From assembly GCA_021158435.1 (NCBI GenBank), contig JAGGUQ010000005.1, forward strand, positions 64,527 through 99,487: a stretch of 34,961 nucleotides of DNA, in the 5' to 3' direction. The position numbers and the translations under genes are program-made. The notes under the pieces are model-generated. The model did no database searches. It saw only the letters and a list, made by a program, of their open reading frames with translations, and had not been told where the DNA came from. This DNA comes from a bacterium (GTDB lineage: Bacteria > Patescibacteriota > Patescibacteriia > UBA2591 > MWDC01). The first letter of the stretch is position 1, and each line of letters opens with the position of its first letter. Of this stretch, positions 28,034-32,813 are shown in pieces.

Positions 28034-29209
28034 TTAATATTCTTTACCATGAAAAATTACTTTCTCCTGATGTAATCCAGGAAACTCTGTTTCAATTGAT
28101 TCTAACATTGCCCTTATTTTCAAAACCAAAGAATCAACTAATTTACCATAGCCTTCATATTCACGGGCAATTACTCTTAAAGAGTTTTCTATTCCTATTA
28201 AAGCATAAAAAGACAACTTTGCTGAAAAATTTGCATCTCTTTGCAAAAGCTTATTAAAAACCTCTTTTTCTTTAATTCCTGATAAATATTTACTAAGCAA
28301 TGCCCGATAAAGTTTTGTCTCAAGAATGTTAATATCCCAACCTATTTCGCTAAGAACACCTAAATTCTTTCTAGCTAAGGATTCCCGACGAGAAAAAAAG
28401 TCTAAAAAAATAGCTGTTTCTAAAACAATTTGATGCCCCTTCTCCCACAAAGGAAACTCACTTGCCTGAGGATAATCTCCATTTTTTAGAGAAAATATCT
28501 CATTTAAATCAATACCCTTTTTAATAAAATATGCTTCCATTTTTTCCTGAACTCTTTTAAAACTCAACTGCACATCTTTGAAAAACTGCTTCCAAGAAAC
28601 ATAGTTCTTACCTTCAATTATATGATTAACTCTTAAAAGCAAGAATTCTTTAAAAAAGGAACATTGCGAATACTTTGGACATTCTTGACACCTCCTATCA
28701 CAAAGAAAAAAGGGCATTTTCTTGAAAATTTTTTCCGGTGATTCCAATAAATCTTTAGGAAAGCCTATTTTTTTCTTAACTGAATCTTTTTTGCTTTTGG
28801 TTTTCTGGGTAAGCATATCTAATTCTTGAAGGGTAACTTTAGCCCACTCTCTCATTTCCCTATCTTTTTCCTTCTGAAGATAATCTTTTATGATCTTTTT
28901 TGAATACTGCGTCCCATCACAAGCCAACAAAATTAAGGACTCTTTTTTCTTTGAATTGGACTTAGATTGATACAAATCCTTTGCCAACTTCTTTCTTTTT
29001 GCTTGATCTAATCCTAGTGCCTTTTTCAAAACTTTCCTCTTTAAAGAAAAATAATTATTCAAAAGCCTTACTTCTGGGCTGTCTGGGCCAACCAAGAGAA
29101 TTTCGCCATTTATTCCCATTTTTTCAATTTCCTTCATTGCCCTTTTTAGGGCTTTAATTATCTGTCTGTTTATATCTTTTCCATTATTTTTATTATTTTC
29201 TGGCCTCAT
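28034..29209 (-). CDS. Unrecognised helical protein with four-Cys motif
   Basis: 391 aa, no family recognised. The N-terminal half is basic and helical. Residues 170-183 hold CDRRCQECPKYSQC, a C-x3-C-x2-C-x5-C cluster that could bind zinc or an iron-sulfur cluster. The C-terminal half is helical and soluble (EKGHQIVLETAIFLDFFSRRES and SFYALIGIENSLRVIAREY). No membrane segment or signal peptide is seen. It overlaps the 91-aa membrane gene by 17 nt and is the last gene of the MBL-translin cassette, 21 nt before trxB. Its company suggests an RNA- or redox-linked role, but this is only inference. Confidence 0.6.
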   Translation of the reverse strand: MRPENNKNNGKDINRQIIKALKRAMKEIEKMGINGEILLVGPDSPEVRLLNNYFSLKRKVLKKALGLDQAKRKKLAKDLYQSKSNSKKKESLILLACDGTQYSKKIIKDYLQKEKDREMREWAKVTLQELDMLTQKTKSKKDSVKKKIGFPKDLLESPEKIFKKMPFFLCDRRCQECPKYSQCSFFKEFLLLRVNHIIEGKNYVSWKQFFKDVQLSFKRVQEKMEAYFIKKGIDLNEIFSLKNGDYPQASEFPLWEKGHQIVLETAIFLDFFSRRESLARKNLGVLSEIGWDINILETKLYRALLSKYLSGIKEKEVFNKLLQRDANFSAKLSFYALIGIENSLRVIAREYEGYGKLVDSLVLKIRAMLESIETEFPGLHQEKVIFHGKEY

Positions 29210-29468
29210 TTTTTAAACGATTTGTAATAATTTTATAAATGTTTTCCAAAAAATCCCCTCCTGCATAACCAATTACAAAAGGAAATATAACACCTTTTAC
29301 CTGAAAAAGCAAAGAAACTACACCTCCAATAACACCACAAATAAGAGATAAAGCCAAAAAATACAAAAGGTCAAATTTTACATTTTTGTAAGAAAGCTGA
29401 TGTTTAACAAAACCAGTCAGCCCTCGAATAATCCCTCCACTAAAACCTAACAAAAAATTTATCAACAT
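29193..29468 (-). CDS. Small hydrophobic protein, two to three membrane segments
   Basis: 91 aa, no family recognised. Hydrophobic, glycine-rich stretches are FLLGFSGGIIRGLTGFV, LLYFLALSLICGVIGGVVSLLF and IFPFVIGYAGGDFLENI. The C-terminus is basic (ITNRLKNEARK). GG pairs suggest tight helix packing. It lies 10 nt after the translin gene and overlaps the Cys-motif gene by 17 nt, so it is translated as part of that unit. Confidence 0.6.
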   Translation of the reverse strand: MLINFLLGFSGGIIRGLTGFVKHQLSYKNVKFDLLYFLALSLICGVIGGVVSLLFQVKGVIFPFVIGYAGGDFLENIYKIITNRLKNEARK

Positions 29469-29478
29469 AAATTTAGAT

Positions 29479-30036
29479 TTATCTTTTTGTTTTTATTTCA
29501 TAAATTATTTGCTCTGCCTTTTCTAAATTCCTTTTTGCCTCATCATATTTATGACGCAAATATCCTGTTAAATTAATTTTTGTTAATTCTCCAACAATAT
29601 CAGCTACTATATTTTTTACTTTTTCTACTTCATCAAACCTCCCATTTGTAGACAAAACAATCATCCTTCTAACTAACTCGCCTGTTAAATCACAAAGTCC
29701 AGCTAAATAATCATCAAATCTTAGCCACTTCTTGTTTATCAACTTGATTTTATTAAATTTTAAAACCTGCCAGAACAATTTAGCTTCTACATATTCCTCT
29801 ACTGCTGCTTTATAAGCACCATTAAAACGAAGATCCAATGCCTGATTTAGCTTTTTTTGAAGAGAACTTAAGATCTTTTCTGCCTCATTTAATATCTTTT
29901 CCCCTGAAGAAATCTCTTCTCTTTGAAAACAAAAAATGGCCTGCTTTGCTTTATGAAGGGCTAAATTAGCCTGATTAATAACAAAAATTCTAATTTTCTC
30001 ATAAATTTGATATTCTTTTCTCAATTTAGAAAACAT
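29479..30036 (-). CDS. Translin-family protein (C3PO-like RNase candidate)
   Basis: 185 aa, all-helical, matching translin from end to end. The clearest parts are EEYVEAKLFWQ (80-90), LRFDDYLAGLCDLTGELVRR (105-124) and the C-terminal GYLRHKYDEAKRNLEKAEQII. Translin and TRAX form ring-like C3PO RNases in eukaryotes, and archaeal translins can also be RNases. The catalytic acids of TRAX (E126, E129, D193, E197) have counterparts here: Glu81 and Glu84 in EYVEA, Asp116 and Glu120 in DLTGE. The spacings (3 and 4) agree. It is coded 3 nt after an MBL-fold hydrolase. Translins are mainly known from eukaryotes and archaea, so a bacterial copy suggests transfer or an old CPR acquisition. Confidence 0.8.
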   Translation of the reverse strand: MFSKLRKEYQIYEKIRIFVINQANLALHKAKQAIFCFQREEISSGEKILNEAEKILSSLQKKLNQALDLRFNGAYKAAVEEYVEAKLFWQVLKFNKIKLINKKWLRFDDYLAGLCDLTGELVRRMIVLSTNGRFDEVEKVKNIVADIVGELTKINLTGYLRHKYDEAKRNLEKAEQIIYEIKTKR

Positions 30037-30039
30037 AGT

Positions 30040-30690
30040 TTAAAAAATTTTAAATTCTTCTTTGTCTTTGGCTACTTCAATTTTTACTAAACCACCTCCT
30101 ATTTTCTTTAATTCTTTTAAAAGCTTCCTATTTCCCATTTGGCATGGCTGCTTGCCAAAATGAGTAAAAATAACCCAAGGAATATTATGCTTCTTAACCC
30201 ATTGAAGCTGAGTTTTCATACTTGCATGGCCAAAAATCTGACCAGTTTTTTTATTCTTCCTAACCAAATCTCTTTTCAAGCTTGACCCATCACCAATATA
30301 TAAATCAAGATGTTCTAATGCTTTGTCCCTATCTTTTATCCACAAAACATCTGGGAAATATCCTGCTTTAAATCCTTTATACTCAAAACGAAAACCATTG
30401 GCTGGACATCTAATAGAATGCAAAACAGGAAAGGGAACTATTTTCAACCCCTTTATTATAAGGGATTTCTTTAAAAGATATTTTTCAGGATTTTCTATAC
30501 CCCTACTATGATCTGGATGTAGATGAGTAATAAAAATTTTATTCGGTTTATATTTTAAAAAAATACTTTCCCCGCAATCAAATAAAACTTTGTAGTGAGG
30601 AATTTTTATTAAAAGAGAAGAATAATGTTTATGAGAATAATTAGATTCTTCAATATATCCTTTTGTTCCTAAGAACTTAAGAATTAACAT
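30040..30690 (-). CDS. MBL-fold metallo-hydrolase
   Basis: 216 aa with the metallo-beta-lactamase fold. Metal ligands are in THLHPDHSRG (His56, His58, Asp60, His61), with Asp134 in YIGDGSS and His155 in FGHAS, and His177 in FTHFGKQ. The first strand reads LKFLGTKGYIEE and the FDCGES segment follows. This resembles PhnP/RNase Z-like phosphodiesterases more than beta-lactamases; the substrate is unknown. It is the first gene of the cassette with translin (3 nt), the 91-aa membrane protein and the Cys-motif protein. That suggests RNA or nucleotide phosphodiester chemistry. Confidence 0.8.
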   Translation of the reverse strand: MLILKFLGTKGYIEESNYSHKHYSSLLIKIPHYKVLFDCGESIFLKYKPNKIFITHLHPDHSRGIENPEKYLLKKSLIIKGLKIVPFPVLHSIRCPANGFRFEYKGFKAGYFPDVLWIKDRDKALEHLDLYIGDGSSLKRDLVRKNKKTGQIFGHASMKTQLQWVKKHNIPWVIFTHFGKQPCQMGNRKLLKELKKIGGGLVKIEVAKDKEEFKIF

Positions 30691-32372: not shown

Positions 32373-32738
32373 CTATCTTTTAATGATTTTTACTTTTATT
32401 TTTTCTGGTTCAAAAAATTTAGCTATTTCTTCAAAAACTTTTTTACAACCCTTGCTATTATCCTTTGAGTAATTGCAAATATATACATCCAAAGTTAGAA
32501 GCCCTAACTCTGGCCAAGTATGAATTGCTACATGTGATTCAGACAAACAAATAACTCCTGTAAAACCTTTGCCTCCTGGAAACTGATAGTAAAAAGATCC
32601 CAGTTCATGAAATCCATTTTGTTTAATAGCTTTAGAAATATGTTTTTTTACTTGAGATAATGACTGCAATTTTTTTATTTGTTTTGTCTGAATTGTTCCC
32701 AAAACATGGGTTCCTGTGGAAACTTTCTTTTTTGTCAT
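32373..32738 (-). CDS. speD: SpeD-type pyruvoyl decarboxylase (AdoMetDC family)
   Basis: It self-cleaves to make a pyruvoyl cofactor; the family member is S-adenosylmethionine decarboxylase of polyamine synthesis. At 121 aa it is the short bacterial class. Catalytic residues match Thermotoga SpeD by spacing: Ser68 in LSESHV (cleavage Glu67-Ser68), His73 in AIHTWPE and Cys88 in YICNY. CPR genomes also contain SpeD homologues that became ornithine or arginine decarboxylases, and no speE is in the window, so the substrate is open. The ORF track begins at a TTG; I prefer the ATG at 32738, although the GGAGG before it is only 2 nt away. Confidence 0.88.
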   Translation of the reverse strand: MTKKKVSTGTHVLGTIQTKQIKKLQSLSQVKKHISKAIKQNGFHELGSFYYQFPGGKGFTGVICLSESHVAIHTWPELGLLTLDVYICNYSKDNSKGCKKVFEEIAKFFEPEKIKVKIIKR

Positions 32739-32740
32739 AG

Positions 32741-32745
32741 CCTCC
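32741..32745 (-). promoter_or_regulatory. Ribosome binding site of speD, short spacing
   Basis: GGAGG lies 2 nt before the ATG at 32738, closer than the usual 5-9 nt. The TTG start in the ORF track would overlap it and is less likely. Confidence 0.5.
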
Positions 32746-32813
32746 AAAACTTAAATTTACTGACTTGCTTCCTAAAATCCCTAATAAAAAAGAAAATATC
32801 AATAATTTCTTCA

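Follow-up and report, generated by a model that had tools for sequence, protein, structure and literature searches.

C3PO ribonucleases of eukaryotes are heteromers of translin (TSN) and TRAX, with two paralogous genes. Human TRAX acts together with translin in a hetero-octamer (PDB 3pja, 3qb5), in which translin is the non-catalytic subunit. Among the catalytic acids, Trax and translin have just Glu197 in common (PMC9246224). A role in tRNA processing has been ascribed to the translin-TRAX complex, acting as a ribonuclease (Li et al. 2012, as cited in PMC5085120). Archaea offer simpler versions: Trax on its own degrades RNA in Nanoarchaeum equitans (PMC9051087), and AfTraX of Archaeoglobus fulgidus is a homomeric C3PO for which the title of Parizotto 2013 gives recognition and cleavage of duplex RNA. 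Eubacterial proteins of the translin superfamily were already the subject of a 2012 title (Gupta, Kale & Kumar, J Mol Evol 75:155, PMID 23188094; cited in PMC3834833, PMC5424206 and PMC8762117), so bacterial occurrence alone is not new.

Here we analyse a gene of this superfamily in a Patescibacteria genome, within a window (the whole stretch of DNA studied) of 34,961 nucleotides. An initial annotation had described it as a bacterial translin with the catalytic acids of C3PO kept, and had suggested that such a form would widen the known range of the enzyme. The bacterial gene is real and common in its class (below); the novelty of a bacterial form as such does not stand in view of the eubacterial reports from 2012. 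The proteins reported at that time, said to be bacterial, single-gene and TRAX-type, reportedly come from Chloroflexi, a different phylum from that of the present gene.

A single TRAX-type gene

29479..30036, minus strand: TRAX-type translin-superfamily gene, 185 aa (PF01997 match, AlphaFold2 model, Foldseek)

The coordinates given in the initial annotation hold, with the strand now specified: the minus strand of 29479-30036 is an open frame of 185 codons, and the plus strand is closed by many stops. The claimed full-length match to translin was borne out by an HMM search, in which Pfam Translin (PF01997) scored 65.5 bits against a cut-off of 25.9 bits (E 8.4e-18), covering residues 30-182 of the protein and positions 17-202 of the 205 in the profile. 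The same profile matched 35/35 scanned relatives. That the protein comes from a single gene was likewise correct, as the genome (552 kb, 98% complete) contains no other PF01997 match. A weak Pfam match to FliS, below cut-off, was dismissed as similarity between helical bundles.

Identity to characterised proteins is only about 24%. A phmmer search of solved structures with the window protein found the N. equitans protein NEQ131 and TRAX (E about 1e-5). A profile built from 35 relatives retrieved C3PO, translin and TRAX chains only from the PDB, the best being NEQ131 (E 1.8e-24), AfTraX (E 6e-21) and human TRAX (E 1e-20), with translins weaker. The NCBI models that match the translin family (NCBIfam NF011156-NF011161, PRK14562) carry the name 'haloacid dehalogenase superfamily protein', a label that is apparently misleading and because of which the TRAX-type family has likely been overlooked in annotations.

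The catalytic acids are invariant

29794..29796, minus strand: Glu81 codon, counterpart of Glu126 in human TRAX
29785..29787, minus strand: Glu84 codon, counterpart of Glu129 in human TRAX
29689..29691, minus strand: Asp116 codon, counterpart of Asp193 in human TRAX
29677..29679, minus strand: Glu120 codon, counterpart of Glu197 in human TRAX

In the profile alignment, E126, E129, D193 and E197 of human TRAX fall one to one on E81, E84, D116 and E120 of the window protein, the TRAX residue numbers having been counted along the alignment printout and the codon coordinates computed as 30036-3*(n-1). The four acids lie at the positions given in the initial annotation. NEQ131 and AfTraX have E, E, D and E in these columns, whereas human translin has R, F, I and E. 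With three of these acids absent from human translin, the window protein is TRAX-type and not translin-type; the earlier name was right about the superfamily but not about the subtype. Human translin (PDB 1j1j, 4wyv) shares the fold and the equivalent of Glu120.

Each of the four acids is invariant in 115/115 bacterial relatives, as are E80, G119, R123, R161 and K163. Nine of the 185 positions are therefore invariant, and four of these nine are the predicted acids (chance 2.7e-6, or 4e-4 when the test is confined to the 25 acidic residues). Because part of the 115-sequence set had been recruited by a DNA pattern that includes EEY.EA, we repeated the count on 45 sequences recruited by profile alone, with the same result. 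The median pairwise identity in this smaller set is 36%, which makes the invariance of the four acids informative. The neighbouring column of Glu80 holds Glu in 115/115 bacteria versus Gln in all five archaeal and eukaryotic rows, and the EE at positions 80-81, next to the putative active site, may be a mark of a bacterial subfamily.

Predicted structure

Modelled as a single chain by AlphaFold2 with an alignment, the protein forms seven helices with a mean pLDDT of 96.7 and a pTM of 0.91. All of the 50 PDB matches listed by Foldseek are C3PO, TRAX or translin chains, and the best fits among them are the archaeal homomeric C3POs. The all-helical translin fold is thus predicted with confidence. 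Helix 73-94 of the model carries E81 and E84, and helix 107-130 carries D116 and E120; as the members of the first pair are three residues apart and those of the second four apart, both residues of a pair point to the same side of their helix.

The closest comparison is with NEQ131 (PDB 5jr9, 5jrc, 5jre), also single-gene and TRAX-type, which has the four acids aligned and superposes on the model with TM 0.87-0.88 and rmsd 1.8-1.9; unlike the window protein it is archaeal, shares about 24% identity with it and reads QE rather than EE at the first catalytic Glu and the residue ahead of it. AfTraX (PDB 3zc0, 3zc1) is again the product of a single gene with the four acids aligned, and fits at TM 0.89-0.91, but it is archaeal and about 21% identical, and for the window protein both oligomer and activity are putative. 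Human TRAX differs further in its hetero-octameric partnership with translin and in a longer linker between the acid helices, whereas the window genome has one gene.

Proposed function

By analogy with these systems, the protein is most likely a metal-dependent, homo-oligomeric RNase that trims small or structured RNA without Argonaute. In the model, the seven-helix protomer would bring the E81/E84 helix and the neighbouring D116/E120 helix together, and the exact alignment with solved TRAX and C3PO structures suggests that the four acids form a divalent-metal site. Identical subunits may then assemble into a closed barrel, as in single-gene archaeal C3POs, and short or structured RNA held inside the barrel would be cleaved, as in archaeal C3PO. 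The genome encodes bacterial 16S RNA and an RNase P RNA of type A, and a search of it for a Piwi domain (Argonaute) found none. The protein therefore cannot serve RNAi of the eukaryotic type, and we speculate that its substrate is likely ordinary cellular RNA rather than siRNA passenger strands. This could be pre-tRNA leaders released by RNase P, or other small RNA fragments; pre-tRNA fragments are the natural first guess, given the tRNA-processing role of translin-TRAX and a genome without Argonaute. Taken as a whole, from metal site and barrel to RNA cleavage and an ordinary cellular substrate, a homo-oligomeric C3PO ribonuclease of TRAX type in this ABY1 Patescibacterium seems to us a probable reading.

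The protein might instead be a translin-like scaffold or chaperone that binds nucleic acid and has no meaningful RNase activity, the acids being kept for folding or for a metal-supported structure. Eukaryotic translin, with one of the four acids, does work without catalysis (PMC9246224), and the basic residues R123, R161 and K163 are as invariant as the acids. Yet precisely those three acids that are missing from human translin are retained here without exception, and the nearest solved homologues are single-gene archaeal C3POs. We consider a non-catalytic scaffold unlikely and retain the ribonuclease.

Genomic neighbourhood

30040..30690, minus strand: MBL-fold hydrolase, weakly RNase Z-like, upstream (Lactamase_B_2 E 1.7e-8; RNase_Z TIGR02651 E 5e-12, a match well below cut-off)
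29193..29468, minus strand: small protein of 91 aa, membrane-like by eye, downstream (no Pfam match)
28034..29209, minus strand: protein of 391 aa without an assigned family, third gene of a genus-conserved trio (no Pfam match)

The MBL gene and the TRAX-type gene nearly form one frame: at 30034-30042 a single codon (ACT) separates the TAA stop of the former from the ATG of the latter, which is in the same frame. This near-fusion suggests translational coupling, and the two genes are probably co-transcribed. A conserved operon of the two was nevertheless rejected, for a genome of the same genus (G001) has a different gene upstream and no MBL gene there. What the two genomes share lies downstream, where the 91-aa and 391-aa genes follow the TRAX-type gene in the same order (locus L130 in G001).

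Archaeal TRAX often adjoins SepRS, endonuclease V or TYW1 (PMC8762117). By that precedent, the gene could belong to a dedicated operon for tRNA processing or modification, with the RNase Z-like MBL protein or TsaB as partner. The MBL gene lies directly upstream in the window, a TsaB-like gene occupies the same position in two further families of the order, and TRAX-SepRS operons exist in archaea (PMC8762117). But the same-genus genome is without the MBL gene, and the genes commonly found beside the TRAX-type gene over 80 loci are a type II/IV secretion (T2SS/pilus) ATPase, MltG/YceG, a P-type ATPase, a Mur ligase (these last two named by eye) and a phosphoesterase, each tied to its own lineage. 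No stable RNA-related partner was found among the neighbours across these 80 loci, and we judge a dedicated tRNA operon quite improbable. The immediate neighbours in the window have no Pfam match to the SepRS, endonuclease V or TYW1 families.

Two further observations concern nearby genes. A homologue of the 91-aa protein lies directly upstream of RNase J at another locus (L134:625-2528), and the minus-strand frame at 32373-32747, with a TTG start, resembles by eye a short S-adenosylmethionine decarboxylase proenzyme (SpeD).

Distribution and origin

Relatives that carry the gene include Falkow-, Magasanik-, Uhr-, Komeili-, Kerfeld- and Buchananbacteria, which belong to class ABY1 in GTDB, and on the strength of these names we assign the window's genome to the same class. 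There the gene occurs in 205 of 381 sampled genomes (54%), or in 192 of 335 when the best class genomes are counted, nearly always in one copy; its distribution in the window's own order is patchy. An even sample of the phylum yielded it in 26/380 genomes, only four of them outside the class. Elsewhere it was found in 2/199 genomes of Elusimicrobiota. Viral contigs (two scans), phages and plasmids held no relative of the gene, and we thus see no sign of mobile carriage.

A tree with archaeal and eukaryotic translins had been proposed in the initial annotation, and in one of 74 rows, made by a quick method with long outgroup branches and only two archaea (the solved ones), a single branch separates the whole set of bacterial rows from the five archaeal and eukaryotic rows. 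Members of a family cluster for the most part. The two Elusimicrobiota sequences are nested inside a Falkowbacteria group, so their gene was likely acquired by transfer, and we interpret the whole as ancient vertical inheritance within ABY1, accompanied by losses and by a single transfer into Elusimicrobiota. Although the closest relatives of known structure are archaeal, contamination by archaeal DNA, or a transfer from an archaeon in the very recent past, is scarcely credible and was rejected, given the same-genus copy at 61% identity with common flanking genes, the presence of the gene in more than half of the sampled class, a tree that follows families and splits bacteria from the five archaeal and eukaryotic rows (two archaea only), and the bacterial Glu80 against Gln in all five of those rows.

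In the literature searched, no paper mentions translin together with the candidate phyla radiation, and the phrase 'bacterial translin' had no relevant use; the class-wide distribution in ABY1 appears undocumented there. The present contribution is the systematic presence of a C3PO-type protein with an intact catalytic site across one Patescibacteria class, in over half of the genomes sampled. That these streamlined genomes keep the gene implies a useful role, and such small single-gene proteins are suited to asking what C3PO does without translin and Argonaute. More tentatively, and at a level of belief a little short of even, the invariant EE at 80-81 may define an ancestral, bacterial-specific TRAX subfamily, a single-gene C3PO independent of RNAi that would serve Argonaute-less ABY1 with reduced genomes as a general RNA trimmer. 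If this is true, a whole bacterial class would rely on a naturally RNAi-independent C3PO for RNA trimming in general.

A TRAX-type gene like those of ABY1 also occurs in a record titled Lysobacteraceae (L108; about 0.7 Mb in all), which is probably a mislabelled Patescibacteria genome.
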